A stretch of 59,057 nucleotides of DNA, from IMG/VR virus record IMGVR_UViG_3300031539_000031, positions 1 through 59,057 of that record. One strand, 5' to 3'. This DNA comes from a virus. This document shows positions 8,641 through 51,789 of this stretch, one piece after another. A program made the position numbers and the translations under genes. Numbering within the stretch: position 1 is the first letter of the stretch; the number at the start of each line of letters is the position of its first letter. Under the pieces are notes generated by a model. It was not told where the DNA came from. It worked only from the letters and a program-made list of their open reading frames with translations, and ran no database searches.

Positions 8641-9069
8641 ATGGGAAAAAACAATGTAATGGGCGCAGTATCACTAACGCCAGACCGCAAGGCACGCTTT
8701 GAGAGCTTTGCGGGGTCAAGGGGTATGACTCTATCTAAGATGTTTAGGGAAGCTGCTAACTTTTACATGGAATTTGACTTCGACTTGTTTTGTATGCTCA
8801 AGGTTGTCTCCCAGGATACGGGACTCCCGATGGGTAATATTATCGAACGCTATTGTCTGGCTTTTATGGCCGAGCTTGAGGCCGAGGACAGGGTATCCGG
8901 TGGGCGGATAAACAAAGCCATGATAGAGCTAGCCCCCGGTATGAATGCCCTTGAATTTTATAACTTCTGGCTGAAAATGAGCATACAGGAATTAAGCGAT
9001 AACTTGCAAAAACAGGCCGATATCGATTCTAAGGAAGAGGTAGTGCCTAAGTATTGGAAGTCTAAATGA
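8641..9069 (+). CDS. Hypothetical protein with ribbon-helix-helix-like N-terminus, 142 aa
   Basis: A strong AAAAAAGGAG site precedes ATG 8641. Residues 8-45 (VSLTPDRKARFESFAGSRG, then MTLSKMFREAANFYM) look like a ribbon-helix-helix DNA-binding segment. The stop overlaps the NeuB start (ATGA-type), so it may be co-translated with the glycan cassette and could regulate it. Regulation is inference. Confidence 0.55.
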   Translation: MGKNNVMGAVSLTPDRKARFESFAGSRGMTLSKMFREAANFYMEFDFDLFCMLKVVSQDTGLPMGNIIERYCLAFMAELEAEDRVSGGRINKAMIELAPGMNALEFYNFWLKMSIQELSDNLQKQADIDSKEEVVPKYWKSK

Positions 9070-10100
9070 TAATTGACGGTAAGCATATAGGTGATGAGTG
9101 CTACGTTATAGCTGAAATAGGCCATAATCACGGAGGTAGTTTACAAACGGCCTTAGAGATGATTAAAGTAGCTAAAGAATGCGGTGCGGATGCTGTCAAG
9201 TTCCAGAAGAGGGATAACAAAACACTTTACACTAAAGAACTGTACGACTCGCCCTATGTCAATGAGAACAGTTACGGCAAGACTTACGGAGAACACCGTG
9301 AAGCACTGGAGTTTAATGATGAATACCATAAATTACAGATATACTCTAAAGAAATCGGTATAACGATGTTCGCCACCGCCTTTGATTTTAAGAGTGCCGA
9401 CTTTCTCTTTGATTTAGGTGTGCCGGCTTTCAAGATAGCGTCCGGTGATTTAACCAACACCCCTCTATTGGAGTATGTAGCTCATTTCCAGAAACCGATG
9501 ATAGTCTCCACTGGGGGAGGTACGATAACTGATGTTGTAAGAGCGTATAGCACTATTATGCCGATTAATTCTCAGTTGTGTTTCATGCAATGCACCTGTA
9601 GTTACCCCTGTGATTTTAAAGAGATGAACTTAAACGTAGTCAAGACCTATCGAGAGATATTCCCTGGTATAGTTGTAGGACTCTCCGCCCACGATAGCGG
9701 TATTGCGATGTCCTTAGTGGGTTATATGTTGGGAGCGAGAATTATAGAGAAGCATTTTACCTTAAACAGAGCCTCAAAGGGAACCGACCATGCTTTCTCC
9801 TTAGAACCTCAAGGACTCAGGAAGTTAGTACGTGACTTAAAGAGAGCGCACTTAGCTTTAGGCGATGGTATTAAGCAATTTTACGCCAGCGAATCGAATG
9901 GTCTACGCAAGATGGGTAAGAAATTAGTGGTTTCAAGTGACTTACCGATTGGTCATACCTTAACGTATGATGATATTGCCATAAAATCTCCCAACGATGG
10001 TTTACCCCCTTATGAGATAAGTAATGTCATCGGGAAGAATACTCTCAGGGCATTAAAGGAGGATGAGAACGTCACTTTTGAGGATTTAGTAGATGGGTAG
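9066..10100 (+). CDS. NeuB-family nonulosonate (sialic-acid-like) synthase, copy 1
   Basis: 344 aa, the usual NeuB length. The TIM-barrel motifs AEIGHNHGGS (about 16-25), ADAVKFQK, FKIASGDLTN, STGGG and IIEKHFTLNR are all present, and a C-terminal SAF domain (KLVVSSDLPIGHTLTYDD) follows. Family members condense phosphoenolpyruvate with a hexosamine to make a nine-carbon nonulosonic acid. The exact sugar (sialic, legionaminic, pseudaminic) cannot be read from sequence. The stop overlaps the next gene. Confidence 0.88.
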   Translation: MIIDGKHIGDECYVIAEIGHNHGGSLQTALEMIKVAKECGADAVKFQKRDNKTLYTKELYDSPYVNENSYGKTYGEHREALEFNDEYHKLQIYSKEIGITMFATAFDFKSADFLFDLGVPAFKIASGDLTNTPLLEYVAHFQKPMIVSTGGGTITDVVRAYSTIMPINSQLCFMQCTCSYPCDFKEMNLNVVKTYREIFPGIVVGLSAHDSGIAMSLVGYMLGARIIEKHFTLNRASKGTDHAFSLEPQGLRKLVRDLKRAHLALGDGIKQFYASESNGLRKMGKKLVVSSDLPIGHTLTYDDIAIKSPNDGLPPYEISNVIGKNTLRALKEDENVTFEDLVDG

Positions 10101-12117
10101 AAACTACTCGCTGTATAGAGGTACTATCCAGGTAAATGATAATTTTAGTGTCCTTAAAACAATGCTGGATGATACAGAGGCAGCCCCCGGGATTTATAAA
10201 CCTACTATTTACTGGAAGACTTATGAAAAGTTCTCTCTCCCCGAATTATTACATTTAGGATTGCATGATTTTAGGAGAAGAAAGGAAACAATCCTCTCTA
10301 AATTCGGGGCGACTGATTATAACCCGGAAATACCAATTGATTTTAAGAAAAGCAAAATTATAGAGAAGCTGCATAATGCACAAATTAGATTAATTGACAA
10401 GGCAGTTCGTCATAGAATGAAAACCTCCGTAGATAAAGAGTCTAAACGAATAGGGGCTAAATCATTCAGGGAATTTGAAGCATCTGTAGTTGGCAACCCC
10501 GAACACGTCATTGAAATAGACGGCAAGTTGTACACCTATAAAATCCTGCATTATTACAGGCAGTATTTATATTGCTGTCGCTATATTAACTTTGATTCGG
10601 TTAAAACAATGGTTGAACTTGGCAGTGGGGCGGGGAAACAGGCCGAAGTGATTAAGAAATTGTATCCTGATATCTGTATATTGCTTTTTGATATCCCCCC
10701 TCAATTATACGTATGCCAGCAGTATTTATCTGCTGTTTTCCCTGATTGTGTAGTGCCTTACGAATCTACCAGAGAGATGACAAAGTTGCCGGAAGACCGA
10801 AGGGGTAAAATCTTCTTATTCGGGAGTCATAAATTCCCCATTCTTGATAGTATCGAGAGCGACTTATTCTGGAGTGCGTGCTCCTTTCAGGAGATGGAGC
10901 CGGAAGTGGTGGCGAATTATTTAAGCTATGTGAATCGTTCCGCGAAAACCGTTTACCTGGCTCAAATGATGGAAGGGAAGCATTTAATTTCAAAAACCCG
11001 ATCCAGGGGGGTATTTAAACCCACGGTCTTTGAGGACTACAAACGTGGGCTTTCAAATTTTAATCTATTAGATTGTTCACCAACCCCTATGGCATCATCG
11101 GATAAAGAAAGCAGTTCTTTCTGGGTGCGTAAACTAAAAGTAGACACTGAGGTTACAAAAGAAGAGAAAGTTGATTTGCAGAATAGCAGTAATGCCCTCT
11201 TAAATTGGTTTCTCCACCCGTCCGATTTAGAAGGGCATACTCTATACATGATAGCTATGAATATCAAGGCTGCATACCATAATCTCCACATGTTTGAGGG
11301 AGAGGAAATTGAGAAAGACATCCCATCTATAGATTGGTCTAAGTATAAGGACCAAGATTACATAGAACCCTTGAAACGATTACAGCAAACGGAGAAATTA
11401 AATCACTATATATCTCATTTCATTCTACATGGGAGTCTGGCAACCCGTGATTACATTAAAGGGTGGAGTGATGTCGATGCTCTTCTGGTGATTAAAAAGG
11501 AAACGTTGGACGACCCGGGCAAATTACTTGAATTACGAGAGTTATGTCTTGCAATGCACCCTATTCTTGGGGAAATAGACCCCTTACACCATCATGGATT
11601 GCAGTTTATTACAGAATATGATTTAGAGGCTTATCCCGATACGTTCCTACCCCCCGTTATCTTTGATTACTCCGTTTCACTCCTGGGGCAAAGTAAAATG
11701 AACCTTAGAGTAAGGGACTGTGGTGAGGAATGGTTTGTAGTATTCCATAAAATATGTGAGACCTTAAAACAAGCCTGCGAACAGGGTGAATTGAGGCATC
11801 ACCCCTACAAGGGGGAGTTTCTTTTAAGCCACTTTAGAAATGATGCGATGTACCAACTCAAATATCTGCTCTCGTTAGTCATGCTGCTGCCATCCTACTA
11901 TCTTGGGCTTAAAGGGAAGAGTGTTTATAAGAAATATTCCTTTGATGCTTGCCCCAAGTTTAAGAATTGGGGAATTGTTGAGAAGGCTTCTAATATACGT
12001 AGCCTTTGGGTTGAAACAGAAGGGAACAAAATCTCTGGTTGGGTAAAGGAAATACTTGGTGAAGACTACCTGTGTGAAGCATCTAAACTGGCTGAGGAGA
12101 TGAATGACCGACTTTAA
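10093..12117 (+). CDS. Sugar O-methyltransferase (NanM-like) fused to nucleotidyltransferase domain
   Basis: 674 aa. Residues ~1-350 match the putative sugar O-methyltransferase family: MVELGSGAGKQAEVIKKLYP is the SAM site, and LFDIPPQLYVCQQYL follows. Residues ~440-540 contain a polymerase-beta-type nucleotidyltransferase motif (HGSLATRDYIKGWSDVD, with the DxD pair), then a helical C-terminal part. The two activities in one chain are unusual. The NTase half resembles the separate gene that follows. Likely modifies or activates a glycan precursor; substrate unknown. Confidence 0.7.
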   Translation: MGRNYSLYRGTIQVNDNFSVLKTMLDDTEAAPGIYKPTIYWKTYEKFSLPELLHLGLHDFRRRKETILSKFGATDYNPEIPIDFKKSKIIEKLHNAQIRLIDKAVRHRMKTSVDKESKRIGAKSFREFEASVVGNPEHVIEIDGKLYTYKILHYYRQYLYCCRYINFDSVKTMVELGSGAGKQAEVIKKLYPDICILLFDIPPQLYVCQQYLSAVFPDCVVPYESTREMTKLPEDRRGKIFLFGSHKFPILDSIESDLFWSACSFQEMEPEVVANYLSYVNRSAKTVYLAQMMEGKHLISKTRSRGVFKPTVFEDYKRGLSNFNLLDCSPTPMASSDKESSSFWVRKLKVDTEVTKEEKVDLQNSSNALLNWFLHPSDLEGHTLYMIAMNIKAAYHNLHMFEGEEIEKDIPSIDWSKYKDQDYIEPLKRLQQTEKLNHYISHFILHGSLATRDYIKGWSDVDALLVIKKETLDDPGKLLELRELCLAMHPILGEIDPLHHHGLQFITEYDLEAYPDTFLPPVIFDYSVSLLGQSKMNLRVRDCGEEWFVVFHKICETLKQACEQGELRHHPYKGEFLLSHFRNDAMYQLKYLLSLVMLLPSYYLGLKGKSVYKKYSFDACPKFKNWGIVEKASNIRSLWVETEGNKISGWVKEILGEDYLCEASKLAEEMNDRL

Positions 12118-12973
12118 ATATCCACCTGTTTTAAGCATGGCAGACTACATGGAGGTGATTGACTTATTCTGTCAGGACAATAGGAAAGCGAAGGCTATTT
12201 ATACTATCGGCACTATAAACGACCCTGGTATCTCAGATATTGACTTTCTGGTAGTTGATGCTGTGCCTAAAATCAGTCCGAAGGTCAGGGAATACCTTGT
12301 GGGTGGCAATGTGCTTGTTATGCCGGAATCTATGATGAAATACATCAATTATTTGGAACGGTTTGACTTGCAGCAGGTCTGGGGTGATGAATTAGAAATT
12401 GAAAAGAACGAAAACGAATTATTTGATGCCATTGAAATTATAGAGTGGCTTCCTGAGCGTATCTGCCTGCTGGAACATCTTAAGAGTGTCCATGATATTA
12501 GACGGACTCTATTGTATTTGAAATCAATGGATTTAAGTATCAGGAATGTTGAAAAATATCTTAATATCGCATTCCCCAGGATTAGCAATGAGGAAATCCG
12601 TAGCAATTACCGTGCTTTATCTAATGTCGTGGGTGAATATATTAGGGTAGCGCATCAGGCGTGGGAAATGTTTGAAGAGAGAACAAACTTCTTTACAGGG
12701 GAGGTTGATGGTAGCGTGAATTTCTCCAATTATTATACGTTTACAAACCGATTTCCCTTGTTGATGCAATACCTGTGCTATATAACCTCAATACAGTGTA
12801 GTTTTTCACGGAGACTGAGGCGGTTCGCCCAACTAAAGGGTTATCTATCTTTCAATGACTGGGATTTAGAATGCTTGATTTCATTTCGGGTGGGCTTAAT
12901 GAATGAATTATACCAGTGGTTTGTAAAGGAGAACCTTAAATCGGGGATGATTAAATATGGATGGATTCTCTAA
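12104..12973 (+). CDS. Nucleotidyltransferase-like protein, 289 aa
   Basis: Residues ~33-50 carry TIGTINDPGISDIDFLVVD, the G-[ST]...G-x-S-D-x-D-x-x-V pattern of the polymerase-beta nucleotidyltransferase fold. The rest is helical, like the C-terminal half of the preceding fusion. It overlaps the previous gene by 14 bases. The pair may be diverged paralogues acting on the same small molecule. Substrate unknown. Confidence 0.6.
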   Translation: MTDFKYPPVLSMADYMEVIDLFCQDNRKAKAIYTIGTINDPGISDIDFLVVDAVPKISPKVREYLVGGNVLVMPESMMKYINYLERFDLQQVWGDELEIEKNENELFDAIEIIEWLPERICLLEHLKSVHDIRRTLLYLKSMDLSIRNVEKYLNIAFPRISNEEIRSNYRALSNVVGEYIRVAHQAWEMFEERTNFFTGEVDGSVNFSNYYTFTNRFPLLMQYLCYITSIQCSFSRRLRRFAQLKGYLSFNDWDLECLISFRVGLMNELYQWFVKENLKSGMIKYGWIL

Positions 12974-13049
12974 AGAACTACGCCTGCTCGGTAGGCCAAA
13001 GGTTTTCCCATTCTGGGACAATATGATAGAAATATATGCGGTGAAATAG
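12957..13049 (+). CDS. Possible 30-aa peptide
   Basis: ATG at 12957 lies within the end of the upstream gene and the TAG at 13047-13049 overlaps the GTG start of the next. The product (MDGFSKELRLLGRPKVFPFW and ten more residues) looks like normal coding composition. It explains the only gap in this stretch of overlapping genes. Confidence 0.4.
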   Translation: MDGFSKELRLLGRPKVFPFWDNMIEIYAVK

Positions 13050-13873
13050 TGATTATAGGTTGCATAAACAAAACATTCAGTAAACTACCCCGCCGGTGGA
13101 ATGGTTTACACCTTGAAGACAGCCACTACTATTGTATAATTAATCCCTGTTTTCTGCGTGGGGAGCAGAGTGTCCCCTATGCACTATTATTCGGGCAGGA
13201 AATCTTTGAGTTGATATCCGTTCACGTACCCCTTAATTTAGGGGGTAGTGTTCTGGATGTAGGTTGTGGAGATGGTAGATTGGCCTCTGCCTTTGTCAGA
13301 GGGAATAAGAATAAATTTCATGGTATTTATGCGGGTTTTGATGTTGACCCAAATAGAATCAAGGCATTAAAACAACTACTAAGAACAAACGACAATTTTT
13401 CATTTATATATGCGGATATATTCCACCCCTACTACAATACAAAAGGAACGATACAGCCTGATGAGTACAGGTTTGAATACCCCGATGAGAGTTTTGACCT
13501 TGTTATATTCAATTCAATTTTCACCCACATTCGGTTAAAAACAATTGAACGTAATTTAAGAGAAGCCTACCGTTGTTTAAAACCTGGAGGGAAGGTATGG
13601 GCAACATTCTATCTTATAGACCAGTTCTATAATCCCAAGTATAAAGGATTGAAATGGCACTTTAACTGGAAATGCGAAGAGGGATTTACGGCAGTACATG
13701 ATACCCCTTCGTCTTGCATGGCCTATCCAATCAAAAAGGTAGGTGTTTTATGTAAGGAGATAGGCTTTTCTATTGAGAAATACATAATCGGCTATTGGAA
13801 GATAATTAGACGAACACTGGATAATACCGAGCAGGACGTTTTGATATTAAGGAAACCAGATGGAATGGAATAA
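13049..13873 (+). CDS. Class I SAM-dependent methyltransferase
   Basis: 274 aa with GTG start. Motif I is SVLDVGCGDGRLASAF (about 67-82), followed by YAGFDVDPNRI, FDLVIFNSIFTHI and an LKPGGKVWATF strand typical of Methyltransf_11/25 enzymes. No DNA-methylase catalytic motif is present, so a sugar or other small-molecule substrate is likelier, in line with its place in the glycan block. Confidence 0.75.
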   Translation: MIIGCINKTFSKLPRRWNGLHLEDSHYYCIINPCFLRGEQSVPYALLFGQEIFELISVHVPLNLGGSVLDVGCGDGRLASAFVRGNKNKFHGIYAGFDVDPNRIKALKQLLRTNDNFSFIYADIFHPYYNTKGTIQPDEYRFEYPDESFDLVIFNSIFTHIRLKTIERNLREAYRCLKPGGKVWATFYLIDQFYNPKYKGLKWHFNWKCEEGFTAVHDTPSSCMAYPIKKVGVLCKEIGFSIEKYIIGYWKIIRRTLDNTEQDVLILRKPDGME

Positions 13874-15203
13874 CTTAGAGTTACCATTGGCCTATTATCA
13901 GGATGATGCTGTTTATCATATTTGCGGTGATGCATTAAAGGTACTTCCCGAACTGCCGAGTGATAGCATTGACTTATTGGCTACTGACCCGCCGTATGGG
14001 ATAGGGTTCATGGGGAAGGACTGGGACAAGGCGTTACCCGATAAAAGGATATGGCAAGAATGTTTCAGGGTATTAAAGGACGGGTCGTTCGCCTTTGTGA
14101 TGAGCATACCCAGAGCCGACTGTCTCTCAAGGATGATTATAAGTTTAGAGGATGCGGGATTCATGGTGAACTTCACGCCTATCTTCTGGGCGTATGCCAG
14201 TGGATTCCCGAAGGCGCAGAATATCAGTAAAGCAGTGGATAAGAGGTTGGGGGCTGAAAGGGAAGTGGTGGGTGATGACCCCGAAGCCAAGCGAAGAAAT
14301 AAAGCCACGACTAAATTTTCCAATCTCTACGGTGATATAAATGACTTACCCGTTATCCCCCTAACAGCTCCCGCCACTCCCCAAGCCAAAGCCCTAGACG
14401 GCAGTTATGGGGGATTCCAACCAAAACCCGCCGTTGAAATCATAATCGTGGCGATGAAGCCGTTAAGTGAAAAGACCTTTGTTGACCAGGCTCTTAGAAA
14501 CAGGAAGGGTATCACGTGGCTGGATGACGGACGGATACCCTATGAGAGTGAAGTTGACAAAGACATACTAGAAGCAAAAGCCAGTAAGGTTTTTAGTGGC
14601 GTAAAACCTTTTGGTGGGGTTAATGGTATAGGTAGTGCCCTGAAGCCAAATAATCAAGGTCGTTTTCCAGCCAATCTCTTAGTCAGTGATGATGTACTGA
14701 ATGACGGTAGGGTAACAAAGTCAACTGGCGGTAATCAGGCTAACAGAACCGATGCTATATGGGGTAATGCTAGATATTCTCCTGAGTCAAAAGGATTAGG
14801 CGACTCTGGTTCATTCTCCCGCTACTTTGATTTAGACAAGTGGGCTGAAACACTCCCCTTTTTAATCGTACCAAAAGCCAGCAAGTCAGAGAAGAATAAA
14901 TATCTTGATAAAGGAGAAACTCCATTCTTGCCATCGGGAGCATTTGAAACAAACGGCGGTGAAAAGAAACACACTTTAATGAGAAATAATCACCCCACCG
15001 TCAAGCCTCTTAAACTCATGTCCTATCTAATCATGCTAGGTTCAAGGGAAGGTGATATAGTCTTAGACCCCTTCGGCGGTTCGGGTACTACGGCACTGGC
15101 CAGCAAGCAGTTAAATCGGCGTTGCATTATCTCGGAGTTAAAAGAGCCGTATTGTGAAATCGCAGCTAAAAGATGTTCACAAAGTGTAATGAGGTTAGGA
15201 TGA
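13860..15203 (+). CDS. N4/N6 DNA methyltransferase (DPPY, beta-class order)
   Basis: 447 aa. LLATDPPYGIGF lies at about 39-50 and LDPFGGSGTTAL near the C-terminus, i.e. catalytic motif before SAM motif. NHPTVKPLKLMSYLI precedes the SAM motif, as in many phage orphan methyltransferases. A long insertion (about 130-330) probably holds target recognition. No restriction partner is nearby. It interrupts the glycan genes and overlaps neighbours on both sides. Confidence 0.85.
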   Translation: MEWNNLELPLAYYQDDAVYHICGDALKVLPELPSDSIDLLATDPPYGIGFMGKDWDKALPDKRIWQECFRVLKDGSFAFVMSIPRADCLSRMIISLEDAGFMVNFTPIFWAYASGFPKAQNISKAVDKRLGAEREVVGDDPEAKRRNKATTKFSNLYGDINDLPVIPLTAPATPQAKALDGSYGGFQPKPAVEIIIVAMKPLSEKTFVDQALRNRKGITWLDDGRIPYESEVDKDILEAKASKVFSGVKPFGGVNGIGSALKPNNQGRFPANLLVSDDVLNDGRVTKSTGGNQANRTDAIWGNARYSPESKGLGDSGSFSRYFDLDKWAETLPFLIVPKASKSEKNKYLDKGETPFLPSGAFETNGGEKKHTLMRNNHPTVKPLKLMSYLIMLGSREGDIVLDPFGGSGTTALASKQLNRRCIISELKEPYCEIAAKRCSQSVMRLG

Positions 15204-16342
15204 ATAATATTGTACTTGTAACGCACTGTGTAGATACCGAGGGGCCAATTGGTGGTGATGTCCGCAGGAGAGAAGACGGCTCACAGGAGTTCATGGGCAC
15301 ATGGGAAGAGATAATGGAGTCGTTGGGTGAACTTACATCTGACCGTTTCCGCCAATTACACGCTGATAGTTTCGGCAATCCCTATTTGTATAACTGGTTT
15401 CTCATGGACTTCACAGGGTTTAAGACAAATCCTAAGAACCGTGTTACGAAATATAATGATACCTATGACCACATCATTTCATTGCCTACTCAATTCGACC
15501 ACCTGTACTGGCATTACCATCACCCCCCAACGAACGGGGTAGGCGACCAATGGAGTGGTGATTGGGATTCAAGCGATGAATATAATAATATTCTCTGCCA
15601 CAGGTTGATTGACCGACATGATTTCCCCGAAGTGTTCCGTGCGGGCGGGACGATTGAAGACAACAAGTGCTCCCACTGGCTTGAGAAGAATATTATGGTT
15701 GACTATTCCAACCGTGTTTCTAAAAAGTCGTACCCCACGGATAACATTTTTGACTTCAACTGGTTTGGTACACCATCACACCAGGGCTTTTATCATCCTT
15801 CTTTTGAAGACTTTACAAAGCCCGGGAGTATGAGGCGATATATTGTAAAATGCAATGATTTAAAATCTCGGTTATGCGAGGTAAATCAATACGATGTAGA
15901 TGAATGCTTTGCTATGGCCAGATATTATGAACGGCCTATTTTACTGTCTTACTTCAGCCACGACCATCGAGATATGAGGGAAGAGACCGACTGCGTATAT
16001 AAAATGCTTACCAAGGCGTCACTTAAATATAATATTAACTGGGAATACTGCGGTGCACTCGCGGCTGTCCAGCGATTAGACAATCTTGATATTAAAAAAG
16101 TATTTATGGATGTTGAAATAATTAGAGACATGATGGTCATTAAAACCGATAGCCCTATTTACCAGGATGAACCATTTGTTGCCGTAAAGTACGATAGAGA
16201 GTATGCCAGACTATACCCTATCAGGGTAGATGATTGGTGGTGGTGTAATATTCGGTACGCCTTAGATATTGGGGTTGCGGTAACTTCTTTAAGTGGGAAT
16301 AAGACCGTGTGGAGTAAAAATGTTAGCTATTATACAGGCTAG
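15200..16342 (+). CDS. Polysaccharide-deacetylase-like protein
   Basis: 380 aa from ATG 15200, which overlaps the methyltransferase stop (ATGA); the frame is open a little further upstream. The N-terminus LVTHCVDTEGPIGG has the H/D-x-E placement of polysaccharide-deacetylase-like catalytic strands, and FSHDHRDMREET later could supply metal or catalytic His. It ends overlapping the SpsF-like gene. A deacetylase or related hydrolase on a surface sugar is the best guess; I am not certain of the family. Confidence 0.5.
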   Translation: MNNIVLVTHCVDTEGPIGGDVRRREDGSQEFMGTWEEIMESLGELTSDRFRQLHADSFGNPYLYNWFLMDFTGFKTNPKNRVTKYNDTYDHIISLPTQFDHLYWHYHHPPTNGVGDQWSGDWDSSDEYNNILCHRLIDRHDFPEVFRAGGTIEDNKCSHWLEKNIMVDYSNRVSKKSYPTDNIFDFNWFGTPSHQGFYHPSFEDFTKPGSMRRYIVKCNDLKSRLCEVNQYDVDECFAMARYYERPILLSYFSHDHRDMREETDCVYKMLTKASLKYNINWEYCGALAAVQRLDNLDIKKVFMDVEIIRDMMVIKTDSPIYQDEPFVAVKYDREYARLYPIRVDDWWWCNIRYALDIGVAVTSLSGNKTVWSKNVSYYTG

Positions 16343-17036
16343 AATGAGGTCGAAAAGGTTTAAGGGGAAGGTGCTTAAAGAGATAAGCGGTAAGCCTCTC
16401 CTGTGGCATGTTGTTAATCGTGTGCGACATTCCAAGATTGATGATTTGGTTGTGGCTACTACCATTAATCCAGAAGACGACCCGATTGTAAGGTTTGCAG
16501 AAGAATACCATATTAAAACTTTCCGTGGTAGCGAGGAAGACGTGCTAGACCGTTTCTATCAAGCAGCCAAGAAAGTTAAGAATATCGTGCGGGTTTGCGG
16601 GGATAACCCATTGATTGACCCAGAGACAATTGATACAGTTATTAATCTTTATGATGGATATGACTACTTTAGTAACAGAAGTTACCCCGAAGGGTTGCAC
16701 GTAGAGGTCTTTTCTTTTGAAGTATTAGAGCAGGCATGGAAGGAAGCCAAATCTTTTGAACGGGAGCATGTTACCCCATTTATTTATCATCATGACGAGC
16801 GTTTCAAGATAGGGGGCATTGTGGCGAATCTTCCCCCGATGAGATTGTGTGTAGACTATCCCTGTGATTTAGAATTAGTAAGAGAGGTCTACAAGAAGTT
16901 ATGGCAGGGGGATATATTTAATACTGGTGACATCTGTCACCTATTTGAAGTTCACCCGGAATTACTGGAAATCAACAAAGGAATTCCACGGCTTGAAGGA
17001 TACCATGAAAGTCAGCGTAATCATCACCTGTTATAA
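16320..17036 (+). CDS. SpsF-type nucleotidyl (cytidylyl) transferase
   Basis: 238 aa from ATG 16320. The nucleotide-binding start MLAIIQARMRSKRFKGKVL is the classic SpsF/NeuA signature (x-Q-A-R-M-x-S-x-R-x-x-G-K), followed by VVATTINPEDD, VRVCGDNPLIDP and EREHVTPFIY. SpsF-like enzymes activate sugars for surface glycans and are often next to NeuB/SpsE genes, as here. It may activate a different sugar from the NeuA-like enzyme at 22124. Confidence 0.82.
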   Translation: MLAIIQARMRSKRFKGKVLKEISGKPLLWHVVNRVRHSKIDDLVVATTINPEDDPIVRFAEEYHIKTFRGSEEDVLDRFYQAAKKVKNIVRVCGDNPLIDPETIDTVINLYDGYDYFSNRSYPEGLHVEVFSFEVLEQAWKEAKSFEREHVTPFIYHHDERFKIGGIVANLPPMRLCVDYPCDLELVREVYKKLWQGDIFNTGDICHLFEVHPELLEINKGIPRLEGYHESQRNHHLL

Positions 17037-17667
17037 CTTAGCGGATTATATTGACAGGGCTACACGGAGTTGCTTGAATCAGACTCTCCCGGAAGAGGAG
17101 TTTGAAGTTATAGTTGTTGACGATGCCAGCACGGATTATAGCAGAAAAATTATTACAGGTCTTGGGCATTTTGTCAAACCGATTTTCCTGGAGAAGAATG
17201 TTGGGGTAGCTGAAGCATCTAACATCGGGATAGAAAAAGCTAAAGGTAAATACATTATTAGAGTTGATGGGGATGATTACATTAACCGGAACATACTTTT
17301 TATTATGTCGGAGATTCTTGAATGGAATGATGATATCGGGTTCGTTTATTGCGACCAGATTAAAGTAGACGAGGGGGAAGAGAGAAGGGTTGAAATAAAC
17401 ACATTGGAAAAACTCTTAAATAATGGTGCTGGTGTGATGTTCCGTAAGTCCTATCTTGAATCAATAGGATTATATGACCCCAAATTGAGAACCAGTGAAG
17501 ATTATGATTTGATTCTCAGGTATATGAAGAATTTTAACGGCTACCATTTGCGGTTGCCATATTACCGCTACTTCCAGAGGGAGGGCAGCCTAAGTAAGTC
17601 ACCTGATAGGGCTACATTACAGAGTGAAATAAGGGGAAGGCAATGTCGGAATTCTTTGATAGATTAG
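17005..17667 (+). CDS. GT2 family glycosyltransferase
   Basis: 220 aa from ATG 17005. VSVIITCYNLADYIDRAT opens a GT-A fold; VIVVDDASTD and IRVDGDDYI supply the nucleotide-sugar and DxD metal motifs. SEDYDLILRYM follows in the acceptor region. No membrane segment, so likely a cytosolic enzyme transferring an activated sugar. Overlaps both neighbours. Confidence 0.82.
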   Translation: MKVSVIITCYNLADYIDRATRSCLNQTLPEEEFEVIVVDDASTDYSRKIITGLGHFVKPIFLEKNVGVAEASNIGIEKAKGKYIIRVDGDDYINRNILFIMSEILEWNDDIGFVYCDQIKVDEGEERRVEINTLEKLLNNGAGVMFRKSYLESIGLYDPKLRTSEDYDLILRYMKNFNGYHLRLPYYRYFQREGSLSKSPDRATLQSEIRGRQCRNSLID

Positions 17668-18716
17668 GGGAAAGAGCCTATATTATTGCCGAAGCTGGGG
17701 TGAATCATCTCGGCTCTCTGGAGCTTGGCGAAAGGTTAATCAGGGGGGCAAAGGAATCTGGGGCGGATGCCATAAAATTCCAAACCTATAAGGCTGAGAA
17801 GCTAACCACGAAAGATGCCCCTAGATTCTGGGATTGGGATGGTGAATGTGAAGGGTCTCAATATGACTCTTACTCACTTTTAGATTCCTTTGGCTATAAA
17901 GAGCATAAGAAGTTAAAGGAATTATGTGATAAATACGGGATAGACTTTCTGTCTACCGCATTTGATAATGAAGCCGTTGACTACCTGGATAAGTTAGGCA
18001 TGAAAGCCTTTAAGATAGCTTCTTGTGATTTAACCAACCATCCCCTTTTAAAGTATATCGCCAAAAAGGGAAAGCCTATTTTACTATCCACCGGGGGCAG
18101 TACGATAAATGAGATTCACGAAGCCGTGGATATAATCGAACCGATAAATAAAGAGATTGTCATTATGCACTGCACTCTATGTTATCCTACCAAAAATAAG
18201 GATGCAAATATAAATGCTATCAGTCATTTGAAGAATGAGTTCCCCTATTTAATCGGGCTATCCGATCATACTTTGGGTATCTTAACACCTGTTATAGCCA
18301 GAACTTTAGGGGCGGTATTAATTGAGAAGCATTATACGGTAGATAAAACTTTAGGTAAGAGCGCGGACCATTGTATATCGGTTGACACTGATGAATTAAA
18401 AAAACTTATTGAGCAGGTGAGAATATGTGAGACGCTTCTGGGGGGGAAGAAGCAAGTTGCGGATTGTGAAGTAAGAGCCAGGAAGTACGCACGGCGGAGT
18501 ATCGTTTTAGCTAAAAATCTGTCAAAGGGGCGTATACTGCGTGAAAAAGACCTGATATTTAAAAGGCCGGGGACGGGGATATCCCCCAGCCTGTTAGATG
18601 GAGTAATCGGTAAAAAAATTAACACTGATATTACCAAAGATTCTATATTGGCATGGAGTATGCTTGAAAGCGATAGAAAATATATAAACACTATAAGGAT
18701 ACCTTATGAGGATTAA
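17643..18716 (+). CDS. NeuB-family nonulosonate synthase, copy 2
   Basis: 357 aa. AEAGVNHLGSLELGERLI, ADAIKFQTYKAEKL, FKIASCDLTNHPLLKYI, LSTGGS, IGLSDHTLG and IEKHYTVDKTLGKSADH are standard NeuB/SpsE motifs, and a SAF domain ends the protein (RSIVLAKNLSKGRIL). It is diverged from the first copy over most of its length and is closer to the canonical family. Having two suggests two substrates or products. Confidence 0.88.
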   Translation: MSEFFDRLGERAYIIAEAGVNHLGSLELGERLIRGAKESGADAIKFQTYKAEKLTTKDAPRFWDWDGECEGSQYDSYSLLDSFGYKEHKKLKELCDKYGIDFLSTAFDNEAVDYLDKLGMKAFKIASCDLTNHPLLKYIAKKGKPILLSTGGSTINEIHEAVDIIEPINKEIVIMHCTLCYPTKNKDANINAISHLKNEFPYLIGLSDHTLGILTPVIARTLGAVLIEKHYTVDKTLGKSADHCISVDTDELKKLIEQVRICETLLGGKKQVADCEVRARKYARRSIVLAKNLSKGRILREKDLIFKRPGTGISPSLLDGVIGKKINTDITKDSILAWSMLESDRKYINTIRIPYED

Positions 18717-20145
18717 TGAAAAAGAAGGCGCAGAGGGAACACTATGGCGTGAATTGTGGGGAGCCTATATCGAGGCTACCAAATCCTTATGGAGTAAATT
18801 TCCCGAAGTTCTGGCCGGAGGCTTTTATCTTATTTCCCCCTATCATTCTGCTTTCGGATTAAAAACTAAAATGAGGAATTGTATTTTATTTATTCAATTC
18901 ATCATATTATTCGTTCTCCACCCCTTGAAACTGAATTTCACTTTTGACCCCTGTGATGCGGTTATATTTTGCTCTTCTACTAAACCAAGTATTCAGGAAT
19001 CTATGTTACCTCTTGTAGCTCGGCTGGTAAAAAGGGGATATCGCTGCGCAGTTATCACTTCTTCCAATATGTATATATGGGTGGCTGATGTCTACCCTAA
19101 AATAAGTATTACCACTATTGTCAATTTCAGAAAGCGATTAACCTACGGGTACAATCGGGTATCTTCATTCAAAATATTTTGCAGGGCATTATTGATAACA
19201 GCTATTTTGTATGCCCAAATCATCCGTAAACACCCCCTTGATTTTACTAAGTTACTCCACAATCCCCTTAAAGTTTTATACATGATGATGATGAGTTCCC
19301 ACAAGTTGAGCGTTGCCGGCGATATACTCAGACAACTCAAGCCCCGCCTTATGGTTACGATGCAGGAAAGGTTGCCGATTGCAGCGGAGTTGCTTTTATC
19401 TAAAGAAGCGGATAAATTCTATAAGATTCTGTATCACTATGAAGAGCCGATGATATTCTCTGCCCCGATAATATCTCAAGAGGTTTGTGTTTGGAATCAG
19501 ACAATGATAGATGAACTGTTAAAAGTCTCAGACCGAACCCCGACTTATACTATTGTTGGGAGTCAGGAAATCAGCAATGCGCTCATAAATACTAAAGTAA
19601 TTTCTAGTGGTGATAAACCTGTATTCCTTTACCTGTCACAGTTCGGGCAATTGAATGATGGTTTTACTGAGGCTCCTAGAGAAGCTATGTCATGGATAGA
19701 GTACGCGGCAAAGGAATGCAGTGATTGGTATTTTGTCATAAAGCGCAGAGCATTCCATTACGATGTGGTTGACCCTGGTGCAGAAAAACTTAAATACGAT
19801 AATGTTTTCATTCCAGATGAGAAGATGGATTTTAACCTTTGTATGCGTTGGTCTAATGTGGCTGTTGTGGGGTCTATCTATTCTATGGGGCTTTTTACTG
19901 TAGCAGGGATTGGGAAAGAATCATTTAGATTACTTGTCCCACACAGAACGAATAAACACCCTATCATTGATGAAATTTCAACCCCCGTTCATTCAAAAGA
20001 GGAGTTAGTAAAGTTGCTAAAAAACTTTACTCGTGGTAAAATATCAATGAAAGATTTAAAAGAGGATTCAAGATTCCCTTACAGGGGGCAAACTTTAAAT
20101 AGAATGGAAAGTTTATGCCTGAAGCATTTAGGGAATAAAGTATGA
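18706..20145 (+). CDS. Putative glycosyl/glycerol-phosphate transferase, GT-B-like
   Basis: 479 aa. A hydrophobic stretch (ILFIQFIILFVLHPL, about 65-80) could bind the membrane. The C-terminal half has PVFLYLSQFGQLN, a long WYFVIKRRAFH segment and SNVAVVGSIYSMGLFTVAGIG, resembling the nucleotide-binding half of GT-B enzymes such as CDP-glycerol or SpsB-like transferases of similar length. The assignment is weak by sequence but supported by the flanking NeuB and dehydratase genes. Confidence 0.5.
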   Translation: MRINEKEGAEGTLWRELWGAYIEATKSLWSKFPEVLAGGFYLISPYHSAFGLKTKMRNCILFIQFIILFVLHPLKLNFTFDPCDAVIFCSSTKPSIQESMLPLVARLVKRGYRCAVITSSNMYIWVADVYPKISITTIVNFRKRLTYGYNRVSSFKIFCRALLITAILYAQIIRKHPLDFTKLLHNPLKVLYMMMMSSHKLSVAGDILRQLKPRLMVTMQERLPIAAELLLSKEADKFYKILYHYEEPMIFSAPIISQEVCVWNQTMIDELLKVSDRTPTYTIVGSQEISNALINTKVISSGDKPVFLYLSQFGQLNDGFTEAPREAMSWIEYAAKECSDWYFVIKRRAFHYDVVDPGAEKLKYDNVFIPDEKMDFNLCMRWSNVAVVGSIYSMGLFTVAGIGKESFRLLVPHRTNKHPIIDEISTPVHSKEELVKLLKNFTRGKISMKDLKEDSRFPYRGQTLNRMESLCLKHLGNKV

Positions 20146-21125
20146 AGACGATTTTAATCACAGGTATAGCAGGGTTTTTCGGGCATCATTTATTGGAGCA
20201 TATTCTGAAGGATACCGATTGGAACGTTATTGGTTTAGAGGGGATAAACTATGCAGGGAATTTAGGGCGGGTTAAAGATATTGGTATCTTTACTGAAAAT
20301 GAGCACCGTGTAAAGTTTGTCTGGCATGACTTACGTTCATCTTTTAATGATACAGTTATTAATCAAATAGGGCAGGTTGATTACATTGTTCACCTTGCAG
20401 CCGAGACGCATGTTGAAAGAAGTCTGATTGATTCAAGGCCATTTGTATTAAGTAACGTACTTGGGACTTGCCATCTTCTTGAATATACCAAGCACTATCA
20501 GAAGAAACTTACTAAATATATTCAATTCTCCACCGATGAGGTTTTCGGACCCGCTCCACCTGGGGTCGATTACAAAGAATGGGACACACACAGACCATCT
20601 AACCCGTATTCCGGGGCTAAAGCCGGGGCTGATGATTTAGCACTTTCCTTTGCGCACTCTTTCCAGATACCGATTATCATTACTCATACAATGAATATGT
20701 TTGGGGAGAGACAGCATGAGGAAAAGTTTCTGCCGATGACAATCAAGAAAATACTCACAGGTGAGACGGTTACTATTCACGGGCAGAAGGATAGTATTAG
20801 TACCAGGAAATGGATTCATTGTAGGAATGTAGCTAATGCGGTTACATTCTTATTGGCTAAGGGAGAGCCGGAGGATAAGTATAATATTGCGGGTGAAGAA
20901 CTGGACGTTCTTAGTTTTGCCCAGTTCATATCTAAAGTTATAGGCAAGCCACTTATATATGAATTTCTGGATTTCCACGCCACCCGTCCAGGCCACGACC
21001 TCCGCTATAGTTTAGATGGTAGTAAACTTGCAAGCATGGGTTGGAAACCCCCCATAGAGTTTCTGCCTTCATTGGAGAGGGTTATAAAATGGACACTGCA
21101 AAATAAACAATGGATAGGTCTTTAA
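20142..21125 (+). CDS. NAD-dependent nucleotide-sugar dehydratase/epimerase (RmlB/LegB-like)
   Basis: 327 aa extended SDR. GIAGFFGHHLLEHIL is the Rossmann dinucleotide motif, HLAAETHVERS and FSTDEVFGPAP match 4,6-dehydratase-type enzymes, and NPYSGAKAGADD holds the YxxxK pair. RPGHDLRYSLDGSKL is typical of RmlB-like C-termini. It would make a 4-keto-6-deoxy sugar nucleotide, the first committed step toward legionaminic- or pseudaminic-type sugars. Confidence 0.82.
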   Translation: MKTILITGIAGFFGHHLLEHILKDTDWNVIGLEGINYAGNLGRVKDIGIFTENEHRVKFVWHDLRSSFNDTVINQIGQVDYIVHLAAETHVERSLIDSRPFVLSNVLGTCHLLEYTKHYQKKLTKYIQFSTDEVFGPAPPGVDYKEWDTHRPSNPYSGAKAGADDLALSFAHSFQIPIIITHTMNMFGERQHEEKFLPMTIKKILTGETVTIHGQKDSISTRKWIHCRNVANAVTFLLAKGEPEDKYNIAGEELDVLSFAQFISKVIGKPLIYEFLDFHATRPGHDLRYSLDGSKLASMGWKPPIEFLPSLERVIKWTLQNKQWIGL

Positions 21126-21132
21126 GGGGGGA

Positions 21133-21306
21133 ATGATGAAACAGAATGTATGTGAATATCCTTGTTGGGATGGTGGGGTTTATATAGAAACTGCATGGCA
21201 AGATGATATTCGTCTGAAGAAGCGGTTCGCCGTAGAGAGGAAAGAGAAGATTGCAGCCATGAACTCTATAAAGAGATTCTTTTGGAGACTTCTTATAAAT
21301 GACTAA
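21133..21306 (+). CDS. Hypothetical protein, 57 aa
   Basis: Double ATG at 21133/21136 behind GGGGGGAA. The N-terminus has NVCEYPCWDGG, the rest is basic and helical (LKKRFAVERKEKIAAM). The stop overlaps the ATG of the SDR gene (ATGACTAA). Unknown function. Confidence 0.6.
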   Translation: MMKQNVCEYPCWDGGVYIETAWQDDIRLKKRFAVERKEKIAAMNSIKRFFWRLLIND

Positions 21307-21994
21307 TCTATTTGATTTAACTGGTAAAAAGGCAGTAGTGACTGGCGGTAAGGGTCTTTTAGCTCCTATATGGTGCGAGACTTTAAGAACGGCTGGTGCA
21401 GATGTTCATATAATAGATTTGCCAATGGATGATGTCAGGGATAGAGAGAAATTAAATTTCCTTGCTGGTCATTGGTCTCCTGTTGATATTATCGTAAACA
21501 ACGCTGCCATAGACAACCCGCCGACTTCAAAAGCTACATTCTTTGGGAACTGTAAAGAAATATTAGACGTTAATCTACAGGGTGCGGTTAATGTCTGCGA
21601 GGCTTTCATACCTTCAATGATTAAAAACGGCGGGGGAGTGATTGTAAACATAGGTTCTATTCAAGGATATGGTGGTGCTGATTACAGGAACTATCCAGAG
21701 GACTTTGAGAAACCAATAGGATACAATTTAAGTAAGTGGGGTCTAAGAGGTTTAAGTAAATCAATCTGCGTTCAATACGGTAGATACAACATACGGGCAG
21801 TCACACCGTCATTTAGTGCTTACGATGGTGGGAAGTTAGAACCTGCATTCCTAGAGAAGTTCCTGCACAATATCCCTCTTAATAGGTGTGTCTCTAAGGA
21901 GAGTCTGCAAATGACGCTCTTATATGCTGTATGCTGTCCCGAACTTACAGGCGTAGACTGGAGAGTAGATGGAGGTTTAGGCGCATGGGCGTGA
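21299..21994 (+). CDS. Short-chain dehydrogenase/reductase
   Basis: 231 aa. VVTGGKGLLAPIWCETL is a TGxxxGxG-like cofactor motif, IIVNNAAIDN the NNAG equivalent, and YNLSKWGLRGLSK the catalytic YxxxK; VDWRVDGGLGAW ends the protein as in many SDRs. SDRs of this type occur beside NeuB genes in nonulosonate loci (PtmA-like). Likely reduces or oxidises a sugar nucleotide. Confidence 0.8.
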   Translation: MTNLFDLTGKKAVVTGGKGLLAPIWCETLRTAGADVHIIDLPMDDVRDREKLNFLAGHWSPVDIIVNNAAIDNPPTSKATFFGNCKEILDVNLQGAVNVCEAFIPSMIKNGGGVIVNIGSIQGYGGADYRNYPEDFEKPIGYNLSKWGLRGLSKSICVQYGRYNIRAVTPSFSAYDGGKLEPAFLEKFLHNIPLNRCVSKESLQMTLLYAVCCPELTGVDWRVDGGLGAWA

Positions 21995-22131
21995 AAATGA
22001 TAAAACTACCTGTTTATAAAGATATGGATTCACCATTAGAATATATAAGATTAGAACTTAAAGATGAAGTATGGGATAAATTAAAAGAATACGCACCTCC
22101 CCTTACAATTGTAGAGGATATAAATGACTAA
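21985..22131 (+). CDS. Small hypothetical protein, 48 aa
   Basis: ATG 21985 lies nine bases after GGAGG inside the end of the SDR gene. Product begins MGVKMIKLPVYKDMDSPLEY and is rich in charged residues. It overlaps the NeuA-like gene start. No family recognised. Confidence 0.5.
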   Translation: MGVKMIKLPVYKDMDSPLEYIRLELKDEVWDKLKEYAPPLTIVEDIND

Positions 22132-22828
22132 TTGTGTAGCCCTAATCCCCTGTCGCAGTGGCTCTAAGAGAATACCTGATAAGAATATTAAACTCTTAGG
22201 GGGCAATCCTCTTATTTACTGGACGATTAAAGCTGCTTTAGAGAGTAAGGTATTTGATGATGTTATAGTTTCAACCAATTCAGATAAGTACGCCGACATT
22301 GCCAGAAGCTACGGGGCTGAAGTGATAATGAGACCTGAAGAGTACGCTACTGATATATCCCCTGACATCCAATGGGTTAAATACACCTTAGACAACGTAC
22401 AATCAATATCTGGGCGTTTTTATGATTGCTTTAGTATCTTACGACCTACCTCACCTTTTCGTACACCAGAAACGATACAAAGGGCATGGCGAGAATTTAC
22501 AGCACAGGAGGTAGATTCACTGAGGGCTGTAGAGAAGTGTAGCCAGCACCCTTGCAAGATGTGGCGTATTGAAAACAAATATATGATGTTACCACTATAC
22601 CCAGAGATGCACAGCCAACCCTATCAGACATTACCTGAAATATATATTCAAAACGCCTCTCTTGAAATAGCATGGACTAGAGTTTTAGATAAAGATTCTA
22701 TATCAGGGTTTTATGTAATGCCCTTCTTTACTCAGGGATATGGAGGCTTTGATATAAACACAGAGATGGACTGGCAGATTGCCGAGGAGTTAATACGCAC
22801 TAATAAAGTGAAATTACCGATGATTTAA
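22124..22828 (+). CDS. CMP-nonulosonate (acylneuraminate) cytidylyltransferase, NeuA-like
   Basis: 234 aa. ALIPCRSGSKRIPDKNIKLL is the CMP-sialate synthetase nucleotide motif; VIVSTNSDKYADIARSYGA, RPTSPFRTPETI and the C-terminal GFDINTEMDWQIAE complete the family pattern. It would couple CTP to a NeuB product for transfer by a glycosyltransferase. It is the last gene before the large terminase, whose ATG overlaps its stop (TAATG). Confidence 0.85.
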   Translation: MTNCVALIPCRSGSKRIPDKNIKLLGGNPLIYWTIKAALESKVFDDVIVSTNSDKYADIARSYGAEVIMRPEEYATDISPDIQWVKYTLDNVQSISGRFYDCFSILRPTSPFRTPETIQRAWREFTAQEVDSLRAVEKCSQHPCKMWRIENKYMMLPLYPEMHSQPYQTLPEIYIQNASLEIAWTRVLDKDSISGFYVMPFFTQGYGGFDINTEMDWQIAEELIRTNKVKLPMI

Positions 22829-24252
22829 TGGATAATCCCTTTACAGAAGTAATAAGTAAGATAAAAGAAGATAAGCGTCAGAAAGTCCCTCTGTTAAGTG
22901 GGGAGGGTTCTGAGGTTGTCAATTACTGGCGTTTAAATCCCGTTAGATTCATAGAAGATGTATTAGGGGTCAAACTATGGTCTAAACAGGCCCAGATTTG
23001 CAACTCAGTGCGTGACAACCCACGTACAAGCGTGAGGTCGTGTTCTGCTGTAGGGAAGACGGGAGTTAGTGCTTTAATAGTGTTATGGTTCCTGTGTGCT
23101 TTCAGGCCGGCTACCGTTCTGACAACTGGTAGGAGTTTTAGACAGGTTAAAGAGCAGTTATGGAGGGAGATACGTACCAGACATGCACAATCTCGAAGAC
23201 CAATAGGGGGTGAGATTACTCAGGTATCCTTAAATCTCGCGGAAGACTGGTTTGCTCTTGGGTTCTCTACTGATGAATCGGACAGAGTAACGGGGTATCA
23301 TAATAGACACGTATTAGTTATCGTGGATGAGGCCAGCGGGGTCCCTGAAGAAGTTTACGGGGCTTTAGATAATCCTTTAAGTTCGGGGTGGACTCGTCAG
23401 TTAATTATAGGCAACCCTACTCAGTCGGTGGGTAAATTCAGGGATAGTTTTACTTCTGCTACTTTCAATTCGTTCCACATATCGGCATTTGATACGCCCA
23501 ATTTCACCGGAGAAGAGGGCGATTTTTCTTTTTTGATTTCTAAAGAATATGTTGAAGCTAAGAAGTTAGAATGGGGGGAAGATAATCCATTATATGAAGT
23601 TTTTATTAAAGGGGACTTCCCCTCCGGTGAGACCGATAGGTTAATCCCCTTTGGGGCGGCTGAACTGGCAATTAACAGAGAAATAAAACCCGATAAAGAA
23701 GAAGAATACGCAATGGGGATTGATACAGCTAGATTTGGCGAAGATGAAAACGCCCTATATATAAGACACGGAAGTAGGGTAATTAAAAGCGTCTTCTGGA
23801 AGAAATCCGATACCGAAGCCTCTATTGGTAAAATAGTGCATGAACTAAAACTCTTAAAAGAAGCCGAAACCCCATGCAATATTATTAACATAGATGAGGG
23901 CTATAATCCAGGTATTGTTGACGGGTTGAAAGCATTAAAATACAAAGTTAATGGAATTACATTTCAATCAAAAGCTAAAAATCATAAACTATTTGCTAAT
24001 GTTCGTGCTGAAATGTTCTGGAATCTTGCAGATAGATTTAAGGCAGGAACGATTGATATCCCTAACGATAAGGTATTATTAAAGCAAGTAACAGACATTA
24101 AGAAAAAACCCTTAGACAGACAGGACAAAATCATAATAGAGTCTAAGGAAGATATGAAAGCAAGGGGCTTAAAATCACCTGACAGAGCTGATGCATTAGC
24201 TTTATGCTTTATGAACCCAGTCCCTAGACCCTTGAGTATCAGGTGGGTTTAA
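22828..24252 (+). CDS. terL: Terminase large subunit
   Basis: 474 aa. Walker A is SCSAVGKTG (about 71-79), a variant with Ala-Val in place of the usual Gly-rich loop; Walker B is HVLVIVDEASG (161-171). The RNase-H-like nuclease has GIDTARFGEDENAL (297-310), NIDEGYN and SPDRADALALCF near the end. It powers DNA packaging through the portal. It is co-transcribed with the glycan genes, not with the portal, which lies 2.2 kb further on after a terminator. Confidence 0.9.
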   Translation: MDNPFTEVISKIKEDKRQKVPLLSGEGSEVVNYWRLNPVRFIEDVLGVKLWSKQAQICNSVRDNPRTSVRSCSAVGKTGVSALIVLWFLCAFRPATVLTTGRSFRQVKEQLWREIRTRHAQSRRPIGGEITQVSLNLAEDWFALGFSTDESDRVTGYHNRHVLVIVDEASGVPEEVYGALDNPLSSGWTRQLIIGNPTQSVGKFRDSFTSATFNSFHISAFDTPNFTGEEGDFSFLISKEYVEAKKLEWGEDNPLYEVFIKGDFPSGETDRLIPFGAAELAINREIKPDKEEEYAMGIDTARFGEDENALYIRHGSRVIKSVFWKKSDTEASIGKIVHELKLLKEAETPCNIINIDEGYNPGIVDGLKALKYKVNGITFQSKAKNHKLFANVRAEMFWNLADRFKAGTIDIPNDKVLLKQVTDIKKKPLDRQDKIIIESKEDMKARGLKSPDRADALALCFMNPVPRPLSIRWV

Positions 24253-24945: not shown

Positions 24946-25032
24946 GGGGAGTTGTCAGAGTGGTTGATTGTACTCGACTTAAAATCGAGAGGCTGTGCGA
25001 GCAGCCCAGGAGTTCGAATCTCCTACTCCCCG
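24946..25032 (+). tRNA. tRNA-Leu (anticodon UAA)
   Basis: Acceptor GGGGAGT/ACTCCCC, D arm with GTGGTTGA, anticodon stem CTCGA/TCGAG with loop CTTAAAA (anticodon TAA), long variable arm GGCTG/CAGCC as required for leucine, and T arm AGGAG-TTCGAAT-CTCCT. No CCA is encoded. It may supply a leucine codon that the AT-rich phage uses more than the host does. Confidence 0.93.
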
Positions 25033-25118
25033 CTCAAGTATTATTATAGCATATGAATAGAATTTGTCAAGTCAAGAGCGAAACTTAACTCTTAAGGGAA
25101 TGGCAAAAAGGAGGCAAA

Positions 25119-30735: not shown

Positions 30736-31230
30736 ATGGGAGTATATACATTTAGTCAAGATAATCTGATAATCCCGCTGAACTTAGCAGGTGCAACTGC
30801 TGGGACTGCTGCCGAGATGGATTCCTTTAACATGAGGGGGTATGACCAGGCAACTGTAATCTTCACTCAAAGTGCCTCAGTAGCTGGGAATAATGTGCTA
30901 ACAATGGAGACTGGTGCTTCAAATAGTGCGGATACTAGTGATGCCACATTCCATTATAGGTGGGGTAGTGCTACTGTTGGTGCTTCTAACTCTGATAAAT
31001 TAACCGCTGATGCCACAGCCTCTACCCTGACCATGACAGCTACAACCTATCAGGGCAAGATGCTAGTCATAGAACTGCACGCTGACGAACTGCCCAAGTC
31101 CGGTGAAACAGTCTATTCTTGGGTAACTCCAGACATCGATGGCACTGCTACTAAGGGTTTTATTAGTGGGATTGCAATCCTAAGTAAACCCCGCTATGCA
31201 AAGGCTGTAATGCCTACAGCTGTCAGTTAA
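30736..31230 (+). CDS. Probable head decoration or structural protein, 164 aa
   Basis: Beta-rich and Ala/Thr/Ser-rich (AGATAGTAAEMDSFNMRGY, TLTMTATTYQGKMLVIEL), placed directly after the capsid gene with AAGGAGGAA. This position and composition fit capsid decoration proteins. No named family recognised. Confidence 0.6.
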   Translation: MGVYTFSQDNLIIPLNLAGATAGTAAEMDSFNMRGYDQATVIFTQSASVAGNNVLTMETGASNSADTSDATFHYRWGSATVGASNSDKLTADATASTLTMTATTYQGKMLVIELHADELPKSGETVYSWVTPDIDGTATKGFISGIAILSKPRYAKAVMPTAVS

Positions 31231-51643: not shown

Positions 51644-51789
51644 TTCTCCTCCAATAGTATTTTAAAATACTCCTGTAATATATAAACAATCATAAAGTCC
51701 TGTATAGGGTTCTCTAAGAGGCGATAGTCCTTTCTCAATCTTTCATTACAGTTTTCTCTTATTCTATCTATTGTCTTCTGGTTTATCAT
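51640..51789 (-). CDS. Hypothetical helical protein, 49 aa
   Basis: ATG 51789 overlaps the methyltransferase stop, and its TGA overlaps the next ATG (ATGA). MINQKTIDRIRENCNERLRK then a hydrophobic C-terminal helix. Good coupling evidence on both sides. Confidence 0.6.
   Translation of the reverse strand: MINQKTIDRIRENCNERLRKDYRLLENPIQDFMIVYILQEYFKILLEEK

Follow-up and report, generated by a model that had tools for sequence, protein, structure and literature searches.

The window, by which we mean the whole stretch of 59,057 bases that was analysed, corresponds to the viral record IMGVR_UViG_3300031539_000031. Identical direct repeats of 127 bp are found at its two ends (1-127 and 58931-59057), which indicates that the record is a complete viral genome and, therefore, that the cassette it carries is viral. 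Terminase, portal, protease, capsid, tape-measure and tail genes are present, and no integrase was found in the genome. The closest relative of the terminase belongs to a Methanosarcinales virus (33%) and that of the capsid to a Streptomyces phage (43%), a contradiction because of which no host is claimed. The cassette (9066-22828) is made up of intact genes on a single strand, overlapping or closely spaced, in a run that ends at the terminase large subunit gene at 22828. Families were assigned by Pfam and NCBIfam profiles, with the NCBIfam equivalog cut-offs applied. The genes of the cassette, three landmarks, and a glycosyltransferase gene located after the capsid gene, outside the region covered by the initial annotation, are as follows:

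9066..10100, + strand: NeuB1, nonulosonate-type synthase of a head-linked viral clade (Pfam NeuB, 8e-76, plus SAF)
10093..12117, + strand: NanM-type sugar O-methyltransferase (N-terminal) fused to a nucleotidyltransferase-like domain (C-terminal) (TIGR04371)
12104..12973, + strand: module A protein, possibly nucleotidyltransferase-like (without Pfam match; homologues at the same position in viral contigs L088 and L089)
13049..13873, + strand: class I SAM methyltransferase (Methyltransf_11, 4e-15)
13860..15203, + strand: DNA N4/N6 methyltransferase (N6_N4_Mtase, 1e-28)
15173..16342, + strand: module A protein with deacetylase-like motifs (CVDTEG, HYHH, FRAGG, SHDHR)
16326..17036, + strand: SpsF-type cytidylyltransferase (CTP_transf_3, 5e-34; PDB 6oew, 4e-22)
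17002..17667, + strand: GT2 glycosyltransferase (Glycos_transf_2, 8e-28; 68% identity to an L088 protein)
17643..18716, + strand: NeuB2, second nonulosonate synthase, with 'RPG' kept (NeuB, 1e-79, plus SAF; nearest PDB entry PseI 8h2c, 4e-56)
18706..20145, + strand: orphan protein (without match in the libraries searched)
20142..21125, + strand: RmlB-type NDP-sugar 4,6-dehydratase with TDE and YxxxK (GDP_Man_Dehyd, 9e-48; PDB 1g1a, 4e-53)
21299..21994, + strand: SDR oxidoreductase of viral module B (adh_short, 5e-20)
22124..22828, + strand: NeuA/PseF-type CMP-nonulosonate cytidylyltransferase (CTP_transf_3, 7e-25)
22828..24252, + strand: terminase large subunit, TerL, landmark (phrog_2, 5e-30)
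26429..28342, + strand: portal with Mu-F-like domain, landmark (Phage_portal, 2e-69)
29505..30710, + strand: major capsid protein, landmark and candidate acceptor (Phage_capsid, 1e-43)
32157..33773, + strand: N-terminal GT42/Maf-like GTX domain (about residues 1-172) and C-terminal GT2, candidate nonulosonate transferase (GTX profile, 5e-21; GT2, 3e-19)

The initial annotation had read the run up to the terminase as a near-complete nonulosonate cassette, and most of the enzymes it named were recovered by the profiles: two NeuB-type synthases, both with a C-terminal SAF domain, the SpsF-type and NeuA-type nucleotidyltransferases, an RmlB/LegB-like dehydratase (GDP_Man_Dehyd/Epimerase), an SDR and a GT2. 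These synthesis genes are solid. The sugar O-methyltransferase scores 197 bits with TIGR04371 (NanM), above the cut-off of 44, with the correction that it is fused to a nucleotidyltransferase-like domain; residues 365-672 of the product match L088 and L089, no second NanM was found among 49 NeuB-bearing viral records, and the fusion used as search bait rendered no match in viral or genome contigs. The dehydratase gives 248 bits with TIGR01181 versus 109 with LegB, below the 365 of the dTDP-glucose 4,6-dehydratase equivalog, so that it is RmlB-like only. The nearest solved relative of the NeuA-type protein is CMP-Neu5Ac synthetase (PDB 1eyr, 2e-26), and its 133 bits with the PseF profile fall under the cut-off of 206. 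For the protein described as deacetylase-like (15173-16342) the motifs are present, and are invariant or nearly so in homologues from L088 and L089 (53-59% identical), but it has no match in Pfam or PDB. Two further assignments had to be given up: the GT-B-like identity of 18706-20145, a protein for which no relative was found in Pfam, NCBIfam, PHROGs, PDB sequences, plasmids or viral contigs, and the inclusion among the glycan genes of 13860-15203, a DNA methyltransferase that is probably outside the glycan pathway.

The aminotransferase, acetyltransferase and UDP/NDP-sugar-hydrolysing epimerase had been described as missing, and this was confirmed by individual Pfam scans together with a scan of 53 other ORFs, which detected no DegT aminotransferase, acetyltransferase or Epimerase_2 in the genome; by these Pfam scans a complete Neu, Leg or Pse pathway, with its NDP-sugar hydrolase/epimerase, is not encoded. 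Both NeuB proteins fall below the NnaB (288 and 343 versus 400 bits) and PseI (240 and 282 versus 340 bits) equivalog cut-offs, and under every other one, so that naming the exact sugar from NeuB profiles was rejected. Residues E17, K45, K123, H209 and H230 (NeuB1 numbering), which we take to be PEP/metal-site residues, are invariant in an alignment of 13 NeuB sequences. In NeuB1-type proteins the SAF domain lacks the 'RPG' arginine; that of NeuB1 is NANS-like, with 'KSP' at this place, and the SAF domain of human sialic acid synthase (1wvo) is matched by NeuB1 alone, not by NeuB2. Cellular relatives of NeuB1 (loci L305, L306 and L307) are followed by a KdsC-like HAD phosphatase, an SDR and an aldehyde dehydrogenase; the phosphatase and the aldehyde dehydrogenase were identified by their sequence motifs and by homology across the loci rather than by profiles. 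The phosphatase in these loci and the SAF domain without the arginine suggest that the substrate of NeuB1 is likely phosphorylated, in a KDN/NANS-like route, in which case the 'missing' amino-sugar steps would not be needed.

As judged from phylogeny and gene order, the cassette is a composite of two modules. Module A comprises the nucleotidyltransferase-like, deacetylase-like, cytidylyltransferase, GT2 and NeuB2 genes, and module B those of NeuB1, the SDR and NeuA; in the window, module A splits module B, with NeuB1 on one side and the SDR-NeuA pair on the other. In a NeuB tree the two synthases fall in separate clades, NeuB2 together with L088 and L089, and NeuB1 in a clade of 27 rows (24 viral, two cellular and the window NeuB1; SH-aLRT 97), most viral members of which occur in one conserved gene arrangement. 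L088 and L089 are viral contigs that carry nucleotidyltransferase-like, deacetylase-like and GT2 genes in the order of the window. The enzyme families thus uphold a viral nonulosonate cassette, but not the single pathway that had been proposed, since two modules are joined. Two other records, L004 and L005, were set aside as viral cassettes because a terminase was found in neither. It could be the case that the roles are split, with module B serving to decorate virions and module A acting on either the host surface or the virion glycan. The separate clades of the two NeuB types would fit such a division, as would the stretch examined around module A in L088 and L089, where the capsid-linked GTX gene described below was not found, the terminase match of L088 being far from its cassette. 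Both modules lie, however, in one overlapping run in the window, and we consider a division of roles improbable.

With the SDR of module B as bait, 22 contigs were retrieved from IMG/VR, 20 of them distinct after two near-identical pairs were reduced, with a median pairwise SDR identity of 48%; the window SDR is 40-66% identical to the SDRs of eight viral contigs. Gene order, scored as far as each contig extends, is constant in 22/22, as is the strand: terminase, NeuB1, SDR, NeuA, (transketolase), FkbM-like, portal, capsid. TerL lies upstream of the module in 17/17 contigs that extend that far, the portal and an FkbM-like gene lie downstream in 19/19, and the transketolase is placed between NeuA and the FkbM-like gene in nine of the 22 (the FkbM-like methyltransferase was named from motifs, the transketolase from Pfam). 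The window differs from these relatives in that the SDR-NeuA pair precedes TerL, where the others have the triad after TerL, and in that FkbM and transketolase are absent. A HAD gene is kept in two viral contigs. Such cassettes are mostly bacterial, which might suggest that the genes are debris or that bacterial DNA was misassembled into the record, but the genome is complete with terminal repeats, the overlapping ORFs are intact and the arrangement recurs in about 20 divergent viruses; we regard this reading as refuted by synteny and give it next to no credence. NeuB genes by themselves, as the initial annotation already stated, do occur in viruses; they are common, with at least 525 IMG/VR contigs, so that a rarity of NeuB in viruses is rejected and a NeuB alone in a viral contig is not striking. 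The most informative feature is instead the module placed among packaging and head genes, together with a GT42-like domain encoded after the capsid gene.

The cellular loci L305, L306 and L307 contain homologous genes in mostly the same order, with an extra phosphatase and aldehyde dehydrogenase. NeuA and transketolase come next in two of the three and lie nearby on the opposite strand in the third. They sit in a surface-glycan setting, adjoined in two archaeal genomes by ABC-exporter and FkbM genes. This setting favours the main rival explanation, that in infected cells the cassette alters the host surface, be it O-antigen, capsule, S-layer or flagellum, for instance to keep out competing phages or to disguise the cell. 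It is further favoured by the stand-alone GT2 beside NeuB2 and the extra dehydratase of the window, and by the prophage genes EpaA/EpaB and O-acetyltransferases that modify nonulosonates of Acinetobacter capsules (PMC12053666, PMC6586298). The lack of an integrase counts, on the other hand, against a role in lysogenic conversion. No flippase, polymerase or exporter was detected in the window by Pfam scans, and many divergent viruses have module B and the GT42-like gene set in among their packaging and capsid genes. A host-surface role is judged rather unlikely.

GTX is a previously unannotated family of about 280 residues encoded downstream of the capsid gene in viruses with module B, some of which carry a second, shorter copy ahead of the portal. 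Used as bait, which does not select for NeuB, it rendered 371 IMG/VR contigs. Among the best 80 of these 371, the capsid gene lies upstream of GTX on the same strand in all 50 loci with a capsid in view (median gap, 914 bp), and of the 14 loci that extend 4.5 kb or more beyond the portal on its upstream side, 11 have NeuB; of the other three, two (L174 and L180) show it at a greater distance when more of the contig is viewed. NeuB is absent between TerL and portal in four of the 11 loci of the same set that show both genes. No GTX member was found among 892 cellular genomes from three bacterial phyla, and no provirus was found in the cellular genome searches with GTX in these phyla or with the SDR in one archaeal phylum.

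In the window, the gene containing the GTX domain begins 1,447 bases downstream of the capsid gene. When a central member of GTX was modelled (pLDDT 78.5), its seven best PDB matches were CstII sialyltransferases (best E 6e-4, probability 1.0). The model of the window domain (pLDDT 90.6) has CstII 1ro8 as its best Foldseek match, the best E-value being to CstII with TM 0.52 and the highest TM, 0.65, to CMP-bound CstII; the Maf flagellin glycosyltransferase 5mu5 is matched at 0.56. These matches are remote (TM 0.36-0.65, with CstII best). Pyrophosphokinases, which belong to the same superfamily, are matched as well, the similar folds in question being thiamine pyrophosphokinase, HPPK and SteA. 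In a comparison of the GTX profile with all PDB sequences, GT42 sialyltransferases took places 1-9 with weak E-values (0.015-0.25); PF06002 (CST-I) gave no significant match, with one of 66 members at E 0.026 and none for the window domain. CstII and Maf both transfer nonulosonates. The most economical reading of these fold and profile matches, given the adjacent NeuB and NeuA genes, is that GTX would be a CMP-nonulosonate transferase. The window copy is divergent: of the 53 columns conserved in the family it matches only 25, and it is without the conserved His and QRP, so that its activity is uncertain. In the GTX gene of L181 (16998-18746) an intein-like insert lies directly after the conserved GVDM motif, a position hinting that this motif is functionally important.

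Other phages use glycosyltransferases of their own to hypermodify DNA (as cited in PMC12619734), and the window has DNA methyltransferase genes within or close to the cassette, from which it could be argued that the sugar is destined for viral DNA. Pfam scans found neither thymidylate synthase-like nor hydroxymethylase genes, and GTX tracks the capsid gene; in the lack of the supporting genes DNA hypermodification was rejected as very improbable.

The presence of the core gene set beside head genes in at least 20 other viruses suggests instead that viruses may coat their own particles with sugar. We lean, if only slightly, towards the explanation that enzymes of the virus produce and activate a nonulosonate, with which it then decorates its own head proteins, although the exact sugar, the transfer activity and the acceptor are what we infer. 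Module B would make and CMP-activate an acidic ulosonate-type sugar, probably by the phosphorylated route, with a host enzyme removing the phosphate. Module A (NeuB2, SpsF-type, GT2, deacetylase-like and NanM) might make or modify a second sugar, and the GT42-like/GT2 fusion would transfer sugar to the head proteins. A broader proposal, which we put forward more tentatively, is that in many uncultivated tailed viruses the capsid-linked GT42-like family (371 contigs) and the NeuB1-SDR-NeuA operon serve to cover capsids in a sialic-acid-like sugar that the virus itself makes and that is often methylated; the window would be a composite example, in which the nonulosonate module is accompanied by a second one and the GT42-like domain is fused to a GT2. 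If so, phages would encode synthesis, activation and transfer of such a coat beside their head genes, a large unannotated phage protein family would gain a function, and virion glycosylation would extend from host-supplied to virus-made sugars. This would bear on evasion of receptors, defences and immune recognition by virions, and would offer a source of new CMP-ulosonate enzymes.

Phage virion glycosylation and prophage modification of nonulosonates are already known, whereas no description of the head-linked NeuB1-SDR-NeuA module was found in the open-licence literature, although one may exist elsewhere. Phage glycosyltransferases decorate capsid and tail proteins of the mycobacteriophages Che8, Corndog and Myrna (Freeman 2023, cited in PMC12363180); the accessible part of PMC12363180 describes no phage-encoded nonulosonate synthesis, while the window has NeuB, NeuA and a head-linked GT42-like family. 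EpaA/EpaB (PMC12053666), from Acinetobacter prophages, and the phage O-acetyltransferases of PMC6586298 likewise act on nonulosonates, but are prophage-borne and modify the sugar of the host capsule, which they do not make. The VP4 spike of HRPV-1 bears 5-N-formyl-legionaminic acid made by the archaeal host with no viral pathway (PMC6137143), unlike the virus-encoded synthesis genes of the window. A sialyltransferase has been annotated in phage TayeBlu (PMC12772287). Compared with CstII (GT42) and Maf, which its predicted fold remotely resembles, GTX is viral and was unannotated, the window copy lacking residues conserved in the family.

Among 50,697 phage records (INPHARED), NeuB relatives were found in three, GTX in one and a module B SDR above about 31% identity in none; no isolate carrying the head-linked module was found. 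The marine cyanophage-like AG-345-L05 (L308, MH319754.1, 77482-98312) is a viral genome that, like the window, encodes NeuB, an SDR, NeuA and an RmlB-like protein, but it also has a DegT-like aminotransferase (by inspection), its SDR is about 30% identical and the genes are not head-linked in the stretch examined. A psbA-like gene was noted there by inspection, and an ORF beside NeuB has a start that is CstII-like by eye. In the Microcystis phage Mvi-Yong1342-1 (PP496355.1, L280), a GTX homologue annotated as a methyltransferase lies directly before the terminase genes, and a sugar O-methyltransferase is present too; among the isolates found, this phage comes closest. A second head-linked arrangement was observed in an unrelated SU10-like phage (L006, 3085-14314), where the terminase is surrounded by a NeuB fragment and SpsF-type, GT2 and NeuB genes, and the portal is followed by an MptE-like gene of the Maf superfamily.

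Several minor features were also observed. The transketolase directly follows NeuA in phage contigs such as L117 (6723-8033) and L124 (5181-6479), whereas in cells it goes together with the SDR and aldehyde dehydrogenase; oxidation by the SDR and subsequent removal of two carbons would perhaps shorten the ulosonate chain. Between the capsid and GTX-GT2 genes of the window, two tandem genes (31429-31773 and 31788-32135), 72% identical in DNA, encode proteins of 114-115 aa, and the product of 30736-31230 contains 23% Ser+Thr; all three products are candidate glycosylation acceptors. The genome has three DNA methyltransferase-type genes, two N4/N6 and one MT-A70 (6959-8377, 13860-15203 and 51786-52349), a DUF2341 domain in the tail protein at 43330-46098, and a tRNA-Leu (TAA) gene at 24946-25033, between terminase and portal.
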